Shown here one piece after another: positions 18,851-41,763 of a DNA stretch of 64,000 nt. The translations under genes were made by a program, and so were the position numbers. This stretch comes from a virus. Location of the stretch: IMG/VR virus record IMGVR_UViG_3300032116_015700, positions 1-64,000 of that record. One strand, 5' to 3'. Under the pieces are notes generated by a model. That model was not told the DNA's origin. It searched no databases and saw only the letters and a list, made by a program, of their open reading frames with translations. The stretch's first letter is position 1. Each line of letters starts with the position of its first letter.

Positions 18851-19224
18851 TGGTGGAGATGGTGGGATTCGAACCCACGTCTTACGAAGTAACCATAATA
18901 CCAGCTTTTCACACGTTTAGGATAAGGTTTAATCTTATTCACCTTCCAAAATAATTGGGGCCGTTTGGTTAGAACAGCGCTACCACCAACCGATTTAAAG
19001 TTTCGGTAAACTTAATGCTCATTCTTTTTAAATTCCACGATGAGTGCGGAAGGGATTAGGCTGCTACAGCGTAATCAGCACCTACGAATGCCATAACGTC
19101 ATCGAAGGTCCATGTAGATAATTCTACGTCATTTATTGTTTGATTCCGAGATTAAAGTGGTTTGAGAACCTTCCCACTACGTGTGATACTACAATTCGCA
19201 TCGCAATCAAGTCCAGTCATCCCC
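18851..19224 (-). ncRNA. ssrA: tmRNA (transfer-messenger RNA)
   Basis: A 374-base gene. The 5' end GGGGATG pairs with CATCTCC at the 3' end, with a G-U pair at the third position as in alanine-charged tmRNA; A plus CCA is encoded. A T-arm GTGGG-TTCGAAT-CCCAC is present. A first pseudoknot can be drawn (GTGG/CCAC and GGTTC/GAATC), and the likely resume codon GAC follows it after 11 bases, the same gap as in E. coli. The open frame then encodes a 24-residue tag that starts DVELSTW and ends VGADYAVAA, then TAA. It has its own class A promoter and terminator. It would rescue stalled ribosomes and mark the peptides for proteolysis. Confidence 0.95.
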
Positions 19225-27830: not shown

Positions 27831-27862
27831 GAAAAAAGTTAGGATTATCTTTTAATCCTAAC
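27831..27862 (-). terminator. Intrinsic terminator of tail chaperone unit
   Basis: A nine-base stem GTTAGGATT / AATCCTAAC with a seven-base loop, then TTTTTTCTTTT. The stop codon of the second chaperone frame lies inside the hairpin. Confidence 0.88.
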
Positions 27863-28012
27863 TCTTGAAGGTTGTTTTTGTGTTTGTGCGTTTTTCACAC
27901 TTTCATTCTCTTTTTTCTTTGCATCTGCTAACTTATTATAATAAAAGTTTCGTAGATACGTTGGCATATTATATATTTCCATTACCGTAAATCCTTGTCC
28001 ATAGTACACCAT
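27845..28012 (-). CDS. Second tail-assembly chaperone frame (probable frameshift extension)
   Basis: A 55-aa ORF if it starts at the ATG at 28012: MVYYGQGFTVMEIYNMPT, then YLRNFYYNKLADAKKKEN and a basic tail. The frame is open further up to 28069, adding a protein-like stretch (GLPSNHSINLHTQIFD). It overlaps the end of the upstream gene in the +1 frame and starts right at a run of seven T, so it is better explained as a frameshift extension than as an independent gene. The position between tube and tape measure is that of the G/GT-type tail chaperones. Confidence 0.7.
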   Translation of the reverse strand: MVYYGQGFTVMEIYNMPTYLRNFYYNKLADAKKKENESVKNAQTQKQPSRVRIKR

Positions 28013-28046
28013 ATCAAAGATTTGTGTATGGAGATTTATGCTATGA

Positions 28047-28802
28047 TTACTCGGAAGGCCAAAAAAAGTTTACGCCTAATGCAATAGGCGCCTCCTCCAC
28101 CTCTCCATTTTCATGAGTATAAGTAAATTTCATATCCATATCCGGAGAAATTGCTTTAACATAATCTCTAAATGCTTTACTATCTCTAGCTAACATATTA
28201 TTAATATATTTAGTGATATGTCCAATATCAGAATTTCCGTCTACTGATTTTATCATATATCTCAAACGAGTGGTAATATCACTCTTTATATCTTTATTAA
28301 GTTTTTCTAATGCCGTAATATCCTTCTCTACAGCCTTTTCATCACCGTGTGTCAATAGTTTGAATATAAGTTTATTTTTACCAGCTGGTGTTATAAACTC
28401 AAATTCGTTTTTACTATTATAAATTGAAGTATCAACATTTTTTGTTTTTATTTGGGAAAGGTCACATCTTGCTTTCAAAACTTCATTTTTTACCGAAGAA
28501 AAAAAAGAAAAATCATAATCTGGACCATAACCCAACATACGCGTTGCTAATAATATTGCGTTTTTATCTCCTATTAGTATTTCATCAGGATTAATATTAT
28601 CAACTAAAATAGATTCAAATAATTTATCTAAAACTATACCCTTTCTAATTAGATTACCTGAAGCTAAAATATCTTCTTCTTTAGCTGTCATTAATTTTAT
28701 TGTAATTCTACCAGATGAAAGTGGATTATCTTTTGGATAAAGTTTACCTTCAGATGGTAAATCTAACACTTCCGTTGGAAAATCAAATTGTTTTTCTTGC
28801 AT
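28047..28802 (-). CDS. Tail assembly chaperone / T4 gp26-like baseplate hub protein
   Basis: 251 aa. The start FDFPTEVLDLPSEGKLYPKDNPLSSGRITIKLMTAKEEDILAS, then LLATRMLGYGPDYDF and GVNFFWPSE at the end, match proteins annotated as gp26-like in T4-related phages. It lies between tail tube and tape measure, where tail assembly chaperones are normally encoded. Near its end the coding strand reads AAC TTT TTT TGG; a +1 or -2 slip here leads into the overlapping frame and would give a fused product of about 318 aa. Class B box 23 bases above the ATG, terminator before that. Confidence 0.75.
   Translation of the reverse strand: MQEKQFDFPTEVLDLPSEGKLYPKDNPLSSGRITIKLMTAKEEDILASGNLIRKGIVLDKLFESILVDNINPDEILIGDKNAILLATRMLGYGPDYDFSFFSSVKNEVLKARCDLSQIKTKNVDTSIYNSKNEFEFITPAGKNKLIFKLLTHGDEKAVEKDITALEKLNKDIKSDITTRLRYMIKSVDGNSDIGHITKYINNMLARDSKAFRDYVKAISPDMDMKFTYTHENGEVEEAPIALGVNFFWPSE
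28061..28070 (-). other. Candidate programmed frameshift site
   Basis: The coding strand reads AAC TTT TTT T, seven T in a row, four codons before the zero-frame stop region. The +1 frame has a stop (TAA at 28072-28070) just upstream and is then open for 74 codons. This is the arrangement of tail chaperone frameshift sites; Mu-like phages are thought to use -2. Confidence 0.65.
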
Positions 28803-33144: not shown

Positions 33145-36100
33145 TTATCCCAAACCTAATTTTTCTTCTAACATTTTTACTTTAGCTTTCAATTCTTCAA
33201 TTTGAGCCTGTTGTTCTTTCATAGCGTTTACCAATAATGCCGGCATTGCTCTATCTCTTATTGCTAAATATCCAGCTTCATCTGCTCTTACTAATAATGG
33301 TTCTATATCTTCAACCTCTTGCGCAATGAAACCAATATCATGTCTTAAACCGGTTGTTTCGTACTCATCAGTTCCCTCCTTCCAATCAAATTCAACACCT
33401 CTTAATTTAAGAACTTTTTCTAAAGCATTTTCGTAGAATTTAACATTATCTTTTAATCTTCTATCCGAAGGTGAACCATACGCAATAATGTTGTTTGATG
33501 CAATAATTACACCGTCATATCTTAAGTTAATATTTGCACCACCACCTCTATTACCAGAGAAGATTCTCAATCCATAAGATGCACGAAGTGATAAATATCC
33601 GTCATTTACGTCTGCCAAATCACCATCATCGGATACCCACATACCACCACCACCATAGTTATCAAAGTTTGCACGAACTACATATGGAGTACCAATAGTA
33701 TCATCATTCAAATAGTATCTCTGCCATCTAGATGACCATCCACCCCATCTTACAACGTTATCGCCATCCAAACCTAAATTCAATGCGTAGTAACCACCTT
33801 TGTGGAAACTCATAAATGCACCATTATTGCCGGTTGAGTACGGCTGACACATTGCCGAATCGGTTTGTGTTGCGTAGTATCCTCTATTATAAGTAAAGTA
33901 AACTCTTGAATAGTGGTTATAATCATAAGTTGGAATACAATATTCACCTCTATTATTTGAGTCAACCTGTGCTTTCCATCCACTATTGTTTGGCCAAGAG
34001 TTTCTGAACCACAATCTATCCACAGGTCCACCAACTAACTGCCATCCATATCCCGAATTATAACTCCAAGTATAGTGGTATGATTGAACACCCACCCAGT
34101 GAGATGTACCAGGAGGTTGGTTAGCAGGGTTTGACCAAGTATCAATATCACCACTACCCCAATCCATTACCCAGTTGAAGTCAGTTGTACCCCAACCCAT
34201 ATTACCTGTCCAATAATAAACATCACCAGTGTAATCTTGTGGTCTTCTCCAGTTTGACCTACCGGTTAATGATATATTACCTTTACCTCTATTTTCTAAT
34301 CCTAACCATTGAGAACGAGAGTTAGGGTCCATATAGTATCCGGTATCACCTCTATCATAGAAAATATATGCTCTCATATCGTTTGCCCATGTCACACGAT
34401 ATAATTCCATATGAGCATTACCATATTCAATACGAATCTGCCAGTTACCAGATGAGTTCAACATACCAAAACCACTACCATCCCAATATCCAGCATATCC
34501 TCTTAAATCAGATTCGTAGTTATTGTACATTACAATACCACCATATCCATATCCACCACCAGCTGATTTCCAATATCCGTTATTTGAATACCAGTGCATT
34601 CCTCTGTTTTGGTTATATAAACCATGTCCAGAAGTATTGTTTCTAAACCATCCATTTACATAAACTTCTTGGAATGTAGGTCCTGCATCAGTTCTTACGT
34701 TTTGGTTGATGTAGTTACTCATCCAACCCATATATCTATTCCAATAGTTTCCATCTCTTGCAAACTGATGGGATTCTAAACCATCAGAACCATATCTCAT
34801 AATGAAATAACCATTACCATAAATTTGGCCATACATATGTGATGAGTGCCATTGTAATTTATAGTGTTCACCAGTCCAACCACCAGGATCAGAATGTAAC
34901 ATATATCCAGGTCTAATATAGAGATTATTAGTTGTGACCTGATTCATACTAGAACCACCATCTGGATTTATATAATATCCACTATTATTTGAATCATAGA
35001 AAATAGTTGCGTAGAAATCACCACCACTTCCTAAATACATATTACCAACCCACCAGTTATACATTGCTACTCTGTATCCATTTAGATACATTTCATATAC
35101 GTTATAATAGAAGTTTGAACGGTCAGTATAAATGTGAGCATGTGATGAGTTAGCCGGTCCAAATTCAATATATCCATAAGGAGTATTGTGTCTATAACCC
35201 CAACTACCACCAGCTAAATAGTATCCACCATTTCCATAATCCATTGAAGATAAACGAGAACGTCCTGCTGGGTCAACAAAATATCCAGAGTTGTTTCTAT
35301 CATACATTATTGGAGTTTGGATATTACCTGGTACGTGGAATTCACCACCATAAAAATATCCACTACCTTCAATATTACCAGTACCGGCCGCAGATATATA
35401 ATCGTTTACATTACCATATGTTGCTGTTGAATGGAATACGATTCTACCAGTTGCAGCAACTCTTAAACGGTCATGTATAGTTGAAGTATCAGGATCATTT
35501 CCCTTAAATAAAAGTAATTCTGATTCATCACCGTTTCTCCAAATTCTTTCAATAAGAGCAGTGTGGTTATAAGAACCAGGATTATCACCTACAACACCAT
35601 AAAAATATATACCATTTGAAGATGATGAAATACCACTTAAATAGATACCGCTAAATCTAGAATCACCTGCTGGGTTGACGTAATATGTAGTATCATTTGC
35701 ATCATAGTAAATACCCGCTCTCATTTGGTCTCTTACCCAAAGATGTCCATCAGGATGGAATTGTGCTACACCTGTCCATCCAGAAGTTAAGATACTGAAT
35801 GATTTTGATGAACTCATATGAATACCAAAACCTTCTCTACCCCAATACCCTCTTGATGTTGAGTGTTTAATCAAACCTTCATCCCAACTACCAGCTCTTA
35901 ACCAATAAATGTAAGGCCATTGGTCAGAGTTTGATGTATCATATCCATATCCATTCACATAAAAGTATCCAGATGTTAATGAATATATATTTGAGTTTCC
36001 ATTAGGGTCTACATAGTATCCAGTGTTATTATAATCGTAGAAAATTGGTGAACGCATCTGATTGTATGCGTAGAAAATACCACTACTAAATTCTCCCCAG

Positions 36101-39100
36101 TTATTATATGCACCACCACCAAAATAAATTACGTTACCATCATAATAGTTAAGGTACAATTGATACCCACTACCAGCATCCAAATGTAAGTTACCATTTG
36201 TAGATGCTACCGAAGGAGTACCACTATCAACTAACCCTTGTCTACCATCAGTACCAACATAAAGATACGCTCCCCAAGTTGGATTTGGGCCAAACAAAAT
36301 ACCACCACGCATTCTTCCTGCGGATTGGGAAGTTGAATTAGGGTCTATATAATAACCACTATCATTTGCATCATAGAATATAGTTCCATAAACCGAACCA
36401 CCAAAGTATGCAATAGGACTACCACTTTCTCTACCTATGTAAGCAAATTGGTTATTACCAGAGGTATTATCCATAAATCTTACATAAGAGTTGTTGTTAT
36501 TATCATTTGAGTCAACCCTTAAAATAATATCATTAAATGAGTTTATACTTATTGAATCACTAAACGAACCATTTAAATCAGTAGATGCAATACCATGATA
36601 ATAATATAAATCATAACTAGCGTTCCAGTCAAATGAAATGTATGCCATTCTAGTTAGATACGCACTATATGTTCCGTAAGTTCCCCAAATTGAATATTCA
36701 GAACCAACTCTAAACGAACCCTGTGCTCTTATATACGAATCAACATAAACATTTCTACCACCACTAGAACGAATCCAAGTACTATCTTGCATATACCATC
36801 CGCCACCCCAACCAAATCTAAGCTCCTCATCTTTAAGGAAGGTTGATGTACCTCTACCAAATACAATTGCATCGTTATTACCTAACAATTGTACTGAACC
36901 ATTTATGAATAATCTATTATTAGTTATACTACCAACAGTTGCTGAGTTGTCTGATGCGGTGTATGAAAAATCCGATGTTGATATACCAACTCTTTCAGAT
37001 GAATCAGAATATAGGACTAAGTTTCCACCATATCCAGTTCTGTTAAATTCAAATCCGTTTAAGTTCCATATTTGTCTTCCACCACTCGCATATGTTCTCG
37101 TCTGCCAACTTCCTAATGAACCATTACTATGTCCAAAGTAAATAAAATTAGCACCGGTGATACCCATATCACCATTTACATTTATACCAGAAACATCCCA
37201 TGCTGCTCCTGAAGAACCAACAGCTAATTGTTGTAGTCTTGATTGTCCATCACCATCTATACGATATGCTGAGTTTGCTAAATCATAGAAAATATATGTT
37301 TGAAGATAGTTGTTGTATATACCCCAACCATCAACTCTTACGTTCAAATCACCACTGTCCGAACTCATGCGGAATTCTCCAGCAGCTCCATACATTCCTA
37401 TTCCAGTATATCCCCAATCATTATATCCAAATCTTAATCTACCACCATATGAACTACCATTCCAATAAGGAATTGTTACTGATTGTTTAAATTCTTCATG
37501 AGTTGCCTCTCTAATTCTTGGTGCATAAAAATATGTTTTACTTCCGTTCACACCACCATAACAAGTACCAAATCTCATTTGTACTCTACGAGTTGATGAG
37601 TGCATTACACCATCTGCATTTGAGTTTGTATTATCAATTACATTTGATGATGTTGATGCGTATCTATCTACCCCTTCCGTATTTCCTTGAGGTGATGGAG
37701 TTCTCCAGCTTCTAAATTTATGAACTAATTTAACCCATGTACCACCAGTATTTAATGGTGATGTATGGAAATACGGATTTGAACTTATACCCGTACCATC
37801 AGTCCTTTGCTCATTCCATCCAACATAAAGGTTATCATTACCTGTACTTCTTACCCATACGATGAATTCATAATCTTTTTCAGCATTAACTTCTACCCAT
37901 TCGGTAGTGTACCATTGATAACAACCTGAAGGGTTACCATTACCGGTAGAAACGTGCGCTTGAACAACTGTGCCATCAATGAATGTAATTGCTTCATATA
38001 TACCACTACCATTTACACCAACATCCGTACTTCTTACGTTTAGTGTTGCACCACCTAAATTTTGTGGATATACAGTATTAAGTCTTGAAGAGCCTGCTGG
38101 GTCTAAATAATAGTATGTATCATTATAATCATAATAAATTGGTGAACGCATATCGGTTACACCATAAACTCTATTATAGAATATTTCACTACCATTTAAG
38201 TAATATGTACTTTGATTATTAAGGAACATATTACCATTTACTTCCTTTCTAATATCCCAACTTGCCCAAGCTCCATTTAAAAATCCGTAGTTAGCACCAG
38301 TACCGTAAATTTGTACTTTATAACTACCACCACTATTTTGTAATAATAATCCTACATCAGAGTTATTATTCTGACTTCTGATTGCAATATTAGAACCATT
38401 GTTTGATGTATAATAATGTCCAGCAATTGTTGCGTTAGCAAATGTTGGTGAGTCAGTTGTTCTTACATCCTGATTCATATTTGCTGCATAAGGATACGAT
38501 GTTGTATCCATTATACGTTTCCACGCACCCCAAGATGTACTTGAACCATATCTCAACCACATATTACCATTATCCGTAAATCCTAATTCATTTGCTCCGC
38601 CGCCACTCCAATCAGTAGTTGAACCATATTTTCTAAAGTACATTACGCCATTGTAAGTACCACCATCATTTAATCCATTTGTAGAATTTTGTTTGAAATC
38701 AAATCTAACGCCCTGATTTGCGTTTTGTGTTTGTGGTGTACTAGCTGTTGCTCTTGTATCTTGTACATTTATAAATGTTGCAGTTGTTGCAGTTGTTGCA
38801 TTTCCAGATAAACTACCAACAAAAGTATTTGCTGTTACTTGATTAAAAGTTACATTATCAGTAGTACGCAGATTTTGGTTCATTAAGTAAACCTCTGTAG
38901 CTCCTTGACCGGTATCAATAGTACCTGTAAGAACCACATTACCATTTACATATAAAGTATTATCCGCTGTCCATCTATCATTTGATTCATCCCAATAAAA
39001 CGAAACAGTTGCTGAAGAACCTCTCCTTACTTCAATACCAGCATTTTCAGTTGGTGCACCTGAAGTAAAGTTTGAGTTTAACGTTATAATATTATCAGCA

Positions 39101-41763
39101 AGATTTATTGTTTCGGTATTAATTGTAGTTGTTGTACCACTTACAGTTAAGTTACCAGTAATTGTTGCATTACCAGTCACTGTCAATAATGTACCATCAA
39201 AAGTTAAATTACTTTCAACAGTACCATTTGGTGCACTTCCATTTAATGTGATTACACCATTATCAGTTGTACCAGTTAATGCTAATAAACCAGATGAACC
39301 ACCACTACCTGAAGTTCCTGCAGTTCCACCACTACCCGATGTACCCGATGTGCCACCACTACCAGAAGTACCAGATGTACCACCACTTCCTGCGGTGCCT
39401 CTTGTACCAGATGAACCACCACTACCTGCAGTTCCAGATGAACCACCGCTACCCGATGTGCCGGCAGTACCACCACTTCCTGCACTACCGGATGTGCCTC
39501 CGCTACCAGCAGTACCAGATGAACCTCCACTACCTGCAGTTCCAGATGAACCACCGCTACCCGATGTACCAGAAGAACCTCCACTACCTGCAGTTCCAGC
39601 AGAACCAGATGTACCTCCACTACCAGATGAGCCAGCAGAGCCACTTGTTCCTGCTGAACCAGAACTTCCCGAAGAACCTGCTGAACCAGATGTACCCGAA
39701 GTACCACTATCTCCTGTTCTTACAAAATCAAGAACCAATTGTGCGTTATTTGAAGGAAGTGTACCACTTACATAAGAAACAGGAATTTTAAAATAGCCTG
39801 ATGCGTTTGTTACCGCGCCATTAACTAAAAATATATTATTAACAGTACCACTATCTCTTGAAGATAATACTACATATCCTCTAGCTCCTAATGTTGTACT
39901 ATCATCCCATGTATTAAGCCATGCTAATTGGTTATTGCCATTTTGGTCTAAAATATCAATATAGATAAATGTTACTGAACCGATTGTTGCATTATTATAC
40001 TGAACCTTACCATTACCAGGATCAGTATCAGTTATTATTGTACTAAAATCATACTTGATACCACCACTTTGTCCACTTGTACCACCACTACCAGCAGTTC
40101 CTGCTGAACCAGATGTACCAGATGTGCCGGCACTTCCAGAAGTACCTGTTGTACCAGATGAGCCGGTTGTACCTGAAGTGCCTCCACTTCCAGATGTACC
40201 CGAACTACCACCAGAACCAGAACTACCACTTAAACCCGATGAACCTGCTGAGCCGGATGTACCCGCAGTGCCTCCACTACCAGATGTGCCAGAACTACCA
40301 GATGTACCTGATGTACCTCCACTACCTGAAGAACCTGCACTACCACCTGCTCCTGTAATACCAGAAGAACCCGTTGAACCGGATGTGCCAGAACTACCTG
40401 AACTGCCTGATGTTCCTGATGTTGATGAAGAACCCGAAGAACCGGATGTACCTGCACTACCACCTGCGCCTGAAATGCCAGATGTACCTCCACTACCTGC
40501 TGTACCAGCACTACCTCCGGTACCAGATGAACCATTTGTACCAGAACTACCTGATGAGCCAGAAATACCGGATGAACCCGTTGTACCAGAAGAACCTGTG
40601 CTTCCCGAAGAACCACCACTACCTGCAGTACCCGTTGTACCTGCCGAGCCGGTTGTACCAGATGAACCGGTTGTACCAGATGAACCCGAACTACCAGAAC
40701 TTCCTGATGAACCCGAACTACCTGAAGAACCAGAAGTTCCTCCGCTACCCGATGTACCACCGGAACCAGATGTGCCTCCTGAACCAGAAGTACCACCGGA
40801 ACCAGAAGTTCCTCCACTACCAGAAGTACCTGATGTACCTCCGGATCCAGAACTACCTGAACTACCACCACTACCAGATGTACCAGATGTACCACCACTA
40901 CCCGAAGTTCCTGAAGAACCCGAGCTACCAGATGTGCCACTTGTACCACCACTACCAGAACTACCTGAACTACCACCACTACCTGATGTACCAGAGCTGC
41001 CGCTTGAACCAGAAGAACCTGATGAGCCTCCACTACCTGATGTGCCAGAAGTACCAGATGTACCAGATGTTGCTGCTGCAAATCTTCTACCTACTCTGCC
41101 TGTTGTTAAGTTTACAACTAAAACTTCATTCGTTGTATTATCAGTAGGTATTGTATCACCAGTAACTCCTATTGAGCCACTTACTGAAAGTGAACCTGTA
41201 ATTTCTTGTCTATCTGATGTTGCATCACCAAATTTATTTGAACCACTTGCATAGATAATTGATGATGATATGAATGTTGTATGTAATTCGGTTGTAGTAA
41301 TTTTTCCACCAACTACTAAATTATTTGCAATTGTTGCATTACTACCAATTGTTGCACTTCCACTTACTATTAAAAAATTATCAATAGAAACACCAGTGTT
41401 TACAATCAAACCTTTATTTGGTGAAATATTTGCAATTGCTGAACCAGACTTTAGTTGATTCAAATCCCCAATTGCAGATGCATTAATATTAAATAATCCA
41501 CCACCATCGCCTCTAAATAAAGAAGCCGATATTGATGATGAAATATTTAAAGAACCGGTAATTTGTACATTACCTAAAATTTGTATCGGAGAATTAGATT
41601 GTGATACAATTAAATTTGTTTGTACACCAGAAGCACTAAAACTACCAACTATACTCACCGATGCAGATGAAAAGTCAGCAATTTTACTTCCACTTACAAA
41701 TAATCCAATTAAGGATGAACTTAATTGATTTAAACCATTAGGACTTTTACCTAAATACTCCAT
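33145..41763 (-). CDS. Giant tail fibre with S74-type C-terminal chaperone
   Basis: 2872 aa. Order: a Ser/Gly-rich N-terminal part; Gly-X-X triplet tract 1 (about 226-566); a ~120-residue module (YDFSTIITDTDPGNGKVQYN...); triplet tract 2 (about 686-826); a beta module (LTFDGTLLTVTGNATITGN); a long Gly/Tyr/Asn-rich shaft with eight repeats of the form FYDxNNTGYYVDPxGxS (about 1200-2480); and a C-terminal domain from about 2763 starting SDRRLKDNVKFYENAL, the S74 intramolecular chaperone that trimerises and cleaves itself off. The end is a coiled coil. It should be a trimeric receptor-binding fibre. It is far longer than T4 long tail fibre subunits. Confidence 0.85.
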   Translation of the reverse strand: MEYLGKSPNGLNQLSSSLIGLFVSGSKIADFSSASVSIVGSFSASGVQTNLIVSQSNSPIQILGNVQITGSLNISSSISASLFRGDGGGLFNINASAIGDLNQLKSGSAIANISPNKGLIVNTGVSIDNFLIVSGSATIGSNATIANNLVVGGKITTTELHTTFISSSIIYASGSNKFGDATSDRQEITGSLSVSGSIGVTGDTIPTDNTTNEVLVVNLTTGRVGRRFAAATSGTSGTSGTSGSGGSSGSSGSSGSSGTSGSGGSSGSSGSGGTSGTSGSSGSSGTSGSGGTSGTSGSGGSSGSSGSGGTSGTSGSGGTSGSGGTSGSGGTSGSGGTSGSGGTSGSSGSSGSSGSSGSSGSSGTTGSSGTTGSAGTTGTAGSGGSSGSTGSSGTTGSSGISGSSGSSGTNGSSGTGGSAGTAGSGGTSGISGAGGSAGTSGSSGSSSTSGTSGSSGSSGTSGSTGSSGITGAGGSAGSSGSGGTSGTSGSSGTSGSGGTAGTSGSAGSSGLSGSSGSGGSSGTSGSGGTSGTTGSSGTTGTSGSAGTSGTSGSAGTAGSGGTSGQSGGIKYDFSTIITDTDPGNGKVQYNNATIGSVTFIYIDILDQNGNNQLAWLNTWDDSTTLGARGYVVLSSRDSGTVNNIFLVNGAVTNASGYFKIPVSYVSGTLPSNNAQLVLDFVRTGDSGTSGTSGSAGSSGSSGSAGTSGSAGSSGSGGTSGSAGTAGSGGSSGTSGSGGSSGTAGSGGSSGTAGSGGTSGSAGSGGTAGTSGSGGSSGTAGSGGSSGTRGTAGSGGTSGTSGSGGTSGTSGSGGTAGTSGSGGSSGLLALTGTTDNGVITLNGSAPNGTVESNLTFDGTLLTVTGNATITGNLTVSGTTTTINTETINLADNIITLNSNFTSGAPTENAGIEVRRGSSATVSFYWDESNDRWTADNTLYVNGNVVLTGTIDTGQGATEVYLMNQNLRTTDNVTFNQVTANTFVGSLSGNATTATTATFINVQDTRATASTPQTQNANQGVRFDFKQNSTNGLNDGGTYNGVMYFRKYGSTTDWSGGGANELGFTDNGNMWLRYGSSTSWGAWKRIMDTTSYPYAANMNQDVRTTDSPTFANATIAGHYYTSNNGSNIAIRSQNNNSDVGLLLQNSGGSYKVQIYGTGANYGFLNGAWASWDIRKEVNGNMFLNNQSTYYLNGSEIFYNRVYGVTDMRSPIYYDYNDTYYYLDPAGSSRLNTVYPQNLGGATLNVRSTDVGVNGSGIYEAITFIDGTVVQAHVSTGNGNPSGCYQWYTTEWVEVNAEKDYEFIVWVRSTGNDNLYVGWNEQRTDGTGISSNPYFHTSPLNTGGTWVKLVHKFRSWRTPSPQGNTEGVDRYASTSSNVIDNTNSNADGVMHSSTRRVQMRFGTCYGGVNGSKTYFYAPRIREATHEEFKQSVTIPYWNGSSYGGRLRFGYNDWGYTGIGMYGAAGEFRMSSDSGDLNVRVDGWGIYNNYLQTYIFYDLANSAYRIDGDGQSRLQQLAVGSSGAAWDVSGINVNGDMGITGANFIYFGHSNGSLGSWQTRTYASGGRQIWNLNGFEFNRTGYGGNLVLYSDSSERVGISTSDFSYTASDNSATVGSITNNRLFINGSVQLLGNNDAIVFGRGTSTFLKDEELRFGWGGGWYMQDSTWIRSSGGRNVYVDSYIRAQGSFRVGSEYSIWGTYGTYSAYLTRMAYISFDWNASYDLYYYHGIASTDLNGSFSDSISINSFNDIILRVDSNDNNNNSYVRFMDNTSGNNQFAYIGRESGSPIAYFGGSVYGTIFYDANDSGYYIDPNSTSQSAGRMRGGILFGPNPTWGAYLYVGTDGRQGLVDSGTPSVASTNGNLHLDAGSGYQLYLNYYDGNVIYFGGGAYNNWGEFSSGIFYAYNQMRSPIFYDYNNTGYYVDPNGNSNIYSLTSGYFYVNGYGYDTSNSDQWPYIYWLRAGSWDEGLIKHSTSRGYWGREGFGIHMSSSKSFSILTSGWTGVAQFHPDGHLWVRDQMRAGIYYDANDTTYYVNPAGDSRFSGIYLSGISSSSNGIYFYGVVGDNPGSYNHTALIERIWRNGDESELLLFKGNDPDTSTIHDRLRVAATGRIVFHSTATYGNVNDYISAAGTGNIEGSGYFYGGEFHVPGNIQTPIMYDRNNSGYFVDPAGRSRLSSMDYGNGGYYLAGGSWGYRHNTPYGYIEFGPANSSHAHIYTDRSNFYYNVYEMYLNGYRVAMYNWWVGNMYLGSGGDFYATIFYDSNNSGYYINPDGGSSMNQVTTNNLYIRPGYMLHSDPGGWTGEHYKLQWHSSHMYGQIYGNGYFIMRYGSDGLESHQFARDGNYWNRYMGWMSNYINQNVRTDAGPTFQEVYVNGWFRNNTSGHGLYNQNRGMHWYSNNGYWKSAGGGYGYGGIVMYNNYESDLRGYAGYWDGSGFGMLNSSGNWQIRIEYGNAHMELYRVTWANDMRAYIFYDRGDTGYYMDPNSRSQWLGLENRGKGNISLTGRSNWRRPQDYTGDVYYWTGNMGWGTTDFNWVMDWGSGDIDTWSNPANQPPGTSHWVGVQSYHYTWSYNSGYGWQLVGGPVDRLWFRNSWPNNSGWKAQVDSNNRGEYCIPTYDYNHYSRVYFTYNRGYYATQTDSAMCQPYSTGNNGAFMSFHKGGYYALNLGLDGDNVVRWGGWSSRWQRYYLNDDTIGTPYVVRANFDNYGGGGMWVSDDGDLADVNDGYLSLRASYGLRIFSGNRGGGANINLRYDGVIIASNNIIAYGSPSDRRLKDNVKFYENALEKVLKLRGVEFDWKEGTDEYETTGLRHDIGFIAQEVEDIEPLLVRADEAGYLAIRDRAMPALLVNAMKEQQAQIEELKAKVKMLEEKLGLG
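33148..33475 (-). other. S74 intramolecular chaperone domain
   Basis: The motif SDRRLKDNV followed by LRGVEFDWKEG, HDIGFIAQEVEDI and a terminal coiled coil is the conserved peptidase S74 layout. The Ser of SDRRLKDN is the expected self-cleavage residue. Confidence 0.85.
34315..38160 (-). repeat. Eight YD/DP shaft repeats
   Basis: Eight copies of about 20-27 residues with the pattern (M/I)(F/Y)YDxN(N/D)(S/T)xYY(V/I/L/M)(D/N)Px(G/S)xS are spaced irregularly through the shaft. Between them lie Gly/Tyr/Trp-rich variable segments. Each copy may mark a domain boundary in the trimeric shaft. Confidence 0.8.
39285..39705 (-). repeat. Gly-X-X triplet tract 2 of the 2872-aa fibre
   Basis: About 140 residues in strict Gly-X-X register with X = Ser, Thr, Ala, Gly and no proline. 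At DNA level the repeat unit is nine bases with varied synonymous codons. Confidence 0.85.
40065..41085 (-). repeat. Gly-X-X triplet tract 1 of the 2872-aa fibre
   Basis: About 340 residues of Gly-X-X triplets, mainly GSS, GTS, GGS/T, GSA. No proline. The opposite strand shows a long proline-rich open frame that is only its shadow. Confidence 0.85.

Follow-up and report, generated by a model that had tools for sequence, protein, structure and literature searches.

A tail gene of this virus very probably gives rise to two forms of a tail assembly chaperone from a single message, the longer of which would be produced by +1 ribosomal slippage at a YUU_U motif close to the end of the first frame. 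The sequences show that both frames are coding, that their junction precedes any start codon, and that the site is conserved and compatible with a +1 shift. We infer that the shift takes place on the ribosome, and the exact slippery codon and the efficiency likewise. A programmed shift joining two tail chaperone frames at this place, either +1 or -2, had been proposed from the letters of this DNA alone (hereafter the sequence-only reading), and such a joining is now strongly supported by a +1-frame extension in 252 relatives.

The locus and its two reading frames

The window analysed here is a stretch of 64,000 nt from a 91-kb virus record, in which the tail genes are read on the minus strand (Table 1). 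The sequence-only reading had placed the chaperone gene between those for the tail tube and the tape measure protein, which is borne out, with a small 78-aa ORF also lying between them, and the order tube, chaperone, tape measure is repeated in two related loci (L006 and L012). The gene ends in GGC GTA AAC TTT TTT TGG CCT TCC GAG TAA, and the coordinates given earlier, among them those of the +1-frame stop ahead of the run of seven T, are all correct. As had also been described, the +1 frame can then be read through 74 codons (28069-27845) and closes inside a terminator, since its stop (27847-27845) sits in the 3′ arm of the hairpin GTTAGGATTA-aaaga-TAATCCTAAC-TTTTTT. Translation with one base skipped gives 318 aa, in agreement with the length of about 318 aa expected for the fusion. 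Elsewhere in the window, a 2872-aa tail protein (33145-41763, minus strand) carries long collagen-like SGTSGSS/GGSSG stretches and a chaperone-like C-terminal end (SDRRLKDNVKF), and a phage-encoded tmRNA (18851-19224, minus strand; Rfam RF00023, 80 bits) with the predicted tag DVELSTWTFDDVMAFVGADYAVAA lies near the tail gene cluster.

Table 1. Features of the tail chaperone locus in the window.
Feature	Position	Strand	Remark
Sheath gene	31820-29460	-	Tail cluster
gp19-like tube gene	29405-28908	-	Before the 251-aa gene in the tail cluster
TAC-N, 251-aa tail assembly chaperone of T4 gp26 type	28047..28802	-	ORF, phrog_150, AF2 model; normal decoding
+1-frame stop ahead of the run	28072-28070	-	Second frame opens after it
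+1 shift site AAC TTT TTT TGG C	28058..28070	-	YUU_U in 73/73 lineages
Base 5′ of the U run	28068	-	C of AAC; never T among the +1 lineages
T7 run	28067-28061	-	Within AAC TTT TTT TGG CCT TCC GAG TAA
0-frame stop TAA of TAC-N	28049-28047	-	Sequence
TAC-C, +1-frame extension (FFGLPSNHS...VRIKR)	27845..28066	-	73 codons from the run plus stop; dN/dS, open frame
TAC-NC, predicted 318-aa frameshift product	27845..28802	-	Translation with one base skipped
ATG, candidate alternative start of the second frame	28010..28012	-	Not the main route
Intrinsic-terminator-like hairpin	27832..27862 (about)	-	Over the TAC-NC stop codon; read from sequence
Small 78-aa ORF	27792-27556	-	Between the 251-aa gene and the tape measure gene
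Tape measure gene	27546-25162	-	Downstream of the 251-aa gene and the 78-aa ORF

By profile searches, the 251-aa protein belongs distantly to the T4 gp26/gp51 family. It matches phrog_150 with an E-value of 7.5e-6 and reaches 22.2 bits (E 1.3e-4) against PF12322, slightly under the cut-off of 24.5, and phage SP-15 forms a bridge to the family, being matched by the window protein at E 2e-4 and itself matching phrog_150 at 2.9e-31. Modelled by AF2 (pLDDT 89.9), the first-frame protein matches predicted hub or chaperone proteins of T4-like phages in BFVD, with SP-15 at E 6e-18. In Foldseek this model has its top PDB match in 2ob9, a tail assembly chaperone of HK97, at an E-value of 0.67 that is not significant alone, and an AF2 run of the 318-aa fusion made without an alignment gave a pLDDT of 33. 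Direct hhalign comparison of the window-group alignments (A5 or A2) with T4 gp26 or gp51 alone was uninformative. Taken together, the structure matches, the gene position and the family support a role for TAC-N and TAC-NC like that of lambda gpG and gpGT. Such a lambda-type chaperone role is suggested by family and position. By that analogy, the tape measure protein would carry a coat of many TAC-N and a few TAC-NC copies, with the C domain bringing in tube subunits, and tail length would thereby be fixed.

Evidence for translation of the second frame from the first

Relatives were gathered by tblastn against cultured phages and by scans of IMG/VR and GTDB contigs, seeded by an alignment of the first frame, an alignment of the second frame only and a divergent set, which together gave several hundred loci. 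The cultured relatives include immuto (Flavobacterium), Mel-JY01 (Microcystis), LR756508, GXN1, RM378 and SP-15, and later LIS04. Wherever a relative has a recognisable site, the +1 frame is open and encodes the same domain; the extension lies in the +1 frame in 252 of 252 such loci, which represent 189 distinct 120-nt sequences. A sequencing indel or a decayed gene is ruled out by the identical layout in these 189 sequences. The fairest test for other layouts is the search with the second frame only, and its best 80 matches all followed an ORF of at least 245 codons and lay in the +1 frame relative to it, with no in-frame fusion and no -1 arrangement among them. The loci were dereplicated to 73 +1 lineages, less than 80% identical to one another in nucleotides, and in all of these the 0-frame stop falls 5-10 codons downstream of the site.

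The extension evolves as a protein-coding sequence in the +1 frame only, with a dN/dS of 0.13-0.16. Counted from the slip, +1 codons 8-17 fall for the most part beyond the 0-frame stop and ahead of the ATG, which is codon 18 (window position 28012), and here dN/dS is 0.13 over 31 independent pairs, vs. 1.3 and 5.8 in the other frames. Conservation of the frame upstream of this ATG, which the sequence-only reading had singled out for comparison among homologues, is therefore confirmed.

These values bear on the strongest of the competing explanations, that the second protein (55 aa) is a separate gene whose translation re-initiates at the ATG at 28012 past the first stop. The ATG does exist in the window, and many close relatives have one at the same +1 codon 18, a remote giant-phage relative has a separate ORF with a TAATG overlap (LR756511, L011), and public records of -1 relatives list a short “gp51” gene. 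Against this, the +1 frame is under strong purifying selection upstream of the ATG, and its conservation sets in precisely with the T run. Only 32 of the 73 lineages have an ATG by +1 codon 18; 36 have no ATG before +1 codon 25, and 26 have no ATG, GTG or TTG before that codon. The loci L029, L030 and L031 have no ATG in the +1 frame at all. Because of the selection upstream of the ATG and the many lineages that lack an early start codon, a separate start is not the general route, and we consider this explanation very improbable. The ATG that had been put forward as an alternative start is thus present but is not the main route. As for the giant phage LR756511 (595 kb; L011 4001-4925), the stop of its chaperone gene overlaps the start of a separate 50-aa ORF (TAATGG) that resembles the C domain, and translational coupling has probably taken over from the shift in this remote genome.

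In public records, the C-terminal part of the long chaperone is annotated as a separate gene, either as “hypothetical” or as “baseplate hub assembly catalyst gp51” (L006 4854-4964, L012 4809-4928, L246 2193-2366, L248 2154-2330, L258 1705-1887), and the records examined for these five loci carry no frameshift annotation.

The proposed slip site and the direction of the shift

Of the 73 lineages, 67 have TTTTTTT as the run, four have TTTCTTT and two have TTCTTTT, and since these are the only variants, YUU_U is universal among them. Conservation of the T run had been named beforehand as a check; the seven T are kept in 67 lineages, and the remaining six are still slippery in the +1 direction. 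The run is followed by GGCCT in 50 lineages and by A[CT]CCT in 23, so that the A-site codon is TGG in 50, TAC in 22 and TAT in one. Position 5 of the run is T in 73/73. The second codon of the pair ends in T in all 73, vs. 76% TTT (525/692) for phenylalanine elsewhere in the gene, a probability of about 1e-9 assuming independent lineages. A YUU peptidyl-tRNA could re-pair on UUU in the +1 direction in each of the 73 lineages, and also in RM378. UUU_C is found in the remote GXN1, SP-15 and L276, and one codon earlier in LR756508, and in LIS04 the first UUU is able to slip onto UUU. For the Firmicutes phages (GXN1, SP-15, LIS04) the exact slip codon is unsure because CC_CGA just downstream provides an alternative.

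In the window, the slippery codon is most likely the second TTT, held in the P site while TGG occupies the A site. Most ribosomes would terminate at the TAA and release TAC-N. In a minority, translation would pause as UGG enters the A site, when Phe-tRNA sits on the second UUU in the P site; this tRNA would then move one base forward (UUU_U to UUU), and with GGC as the next codon, translation would continue to TAC-NC. UUU_U by itself is a modest shifter. No conserved stimulatory RNA structure was found by alifold across the 73 lineages, a diverse gapless set that makes this a weak test, and RNA folding around the site has a mean z of -0.58 in the 3′ region and -1.16 in the 5′ region. A Shine-Dalgarno-like GGNG at -9 to -6 was considered as a stimulator and rejected, as it comes along with Gly-Val codons, is not strictly conserved and stands at a spacing that does not fit RF2.

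A homopolymer of seven T in an AT-rich genome also invites transcriptional slippage, in which RNA polymerase adds or drops bases on the run and shifts some mRNAs into the second frame. A run of seven T is, on the other hand, short for efficient slippage of this kind, and the +1 arrangement is kept where only three to four T remain in a row (TTTCTTT in L006, L088, L091, L185 and L186; TTCTTTT in L068 and L181; also L008, L009 and L276). A further possibility is a ribosomal shift of -2, known from phage Mu, which would add one residue more than +1; on the seven-T run itself the second UUU can re-pair at -2, but no such re-pairing is possible at TTTCTTT and TTCTTTT, yet the frame and the product are conserved. 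The interrupted runs therefore exclude both mechanisms in those lineages, and overall we regard transcriptional slippage and a -2 shift alike as extremely improbable. Hence, of the two directions left open by the sequence-only reading, +1 is borne out, and -2 is ruled out wherever the run is interrupted.

In T4-like phages with a clear gp26 it is the -1 frame that holds the short second domain, the site being U_UUU_UUY in most. These include P-SSM5, S-RSM4, S-CRM01, Melnitz, phiAS5, S13, VmeM-32, Vibrio D532 and Vibrio K571, Rhizobium LG08, Rhizobium RL38J1, Cygsa01, PA5oct and Atu_ph07. After the group was enlarged with IMG/VR loci, the -1 extension was found in 58 of 58 lineages. The C domains of the +1 group (A2) and the -1 group match each other by hhalign (probability 80%, E 1.3e-5), and phrog_634 is matched both by the -1-type C domain and by the C-terminal half of T4 gp51, whereas direct comparison of the window-group C domain with T4 gp51 alone gave no match. 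The Phe-Phe pairs of the +1 and -1 sites fall in the same alignment column. An unrooted tree of 42 first-frame proteins, in which the long branches of RM378, T4 and LR756511 are uncertain, requires three changes among the +1, -1 and separate-gene states.

The two groups differ in the single base 5′ of the run. In the 73 +1 lineages the third base of the preceding codon is C in 43, G in 28, A in two and T in none, vs. 37.5 T expected from the codon usage of the genes themselves (log10 P about -27, assuming independent lineages), while T is present in 55 of 57 -1 lineages vs. 35 expected. The window does not carry a -1 site of the T4-like kind, having C at 28068 and its extension in the +1 frame. 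A T before the run would create the canonical -1 heptamer U_UUU_UUU, and its absence from the +1 lineages looks, from these counts, like selection against -1 slipping. A is avoided at this position as well (two of 73 +1 lineages vs. a third-position background of about 42%); avoidance of -1 accounts for T only, and for A an effect on the E site or a G/C edge to the run may play a part. It may be, and with equal reason may not be, that within one chaperone family the direction changed at one homologous U-rich site with a mainly local switch, made up of the synonymous third base just 5′ of the run, where U allows -1 slipping and C or G prevents it, and of the U after the Phe-Phe pair, which allows +1.

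Relation to known frameshifting systems

It is known that tailed phages use -1, -2 or +1 shifts for the chaperone pair depending on lineage, with T4 named as lacking a shift, and both chaperone frameshifting and +1 at YUU_U have deep precedent (PMC5009743). The present locus supplies the frameshift for a large T4-like branch, in a group long described as the exception without one, and identifies the short “hypothetical” gene annotated there as the C-terminal part of the long chaperone. A single Phe-Phe codon pair at which one branch shifts -1 and the other +1, marked by a one-base signature, is a natural experiment on how the direction of frameshifting is set and can be reversed, directly testable by synonymous changes. 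It also yields a strict annotation rule for hundreds of environmental phages, namely TTTTTTTGGCCT or TTTTTTTACCCT shortly ahead of a stop. In a literature search that left the 2022 study of T4-like chaperones outside its scope, no report was found that describes a +1 site for immuto, for Mel-JY01 or for related phages, nor one of a +1 T4-like group or a direction switch at a homologous site. That study, by Vladimirov, Gautam and Davidson (Virology 566:9-15), is said to have identified the T4-like chaperones and to describe frameshifting in several T4-like groups, with T4 genes 26 and 51 being separate.

The lambda G/GT pair likewise lies between the tube and tape measure genes and consists of a short form and a C-terminally extended form, the shift falling close to where the first frame ends; lambda, however, shifts -1, compared with +1 at UUU_U(GG/AC) here, and the sequences are unrelated (Xu, Hendrix, Duda 2004; PMC5009743). 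In release factor 2 (prfB) a P-site YUU also re-pairs +1 to UUU, its site being mostly CUU_U and, in a minority of species, UUU_U. Unlike RF2, which has UGA in the A site, the window group has a sense codon there (UGG or UAC), has no conserved RF2-like Shine-Dalgarno at a 3-nt spacing, and makes a structural rather than an autoregulatory product. Vandenendeviridae and Andersonviridae (phage Adele) share a T-rich slip site where TAC-N ends and a second frame open in all genomes, but they are other phage families and shift -1 at GTTTTT (PMC12846349). A further close system is the T4-like gp26 (TAC-N)/gp51 (TAC-NC) pair, with the same phrog_150 family, a probably homologous C domain and the site at the aligned Phe-Phe column; the cyanophage, Aeromonas, Vibrio, Rhizobium, PA5oct and Atu_ph07 members shift -1, and T4 itself has two separate genes, 26 and 51, unlike the +1 window group. 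Hence frameshifted chaperones, +1 included, are already known, and what is new is the comparison of +1 with -1, a clean change of direction within one T4-like chaperone family.
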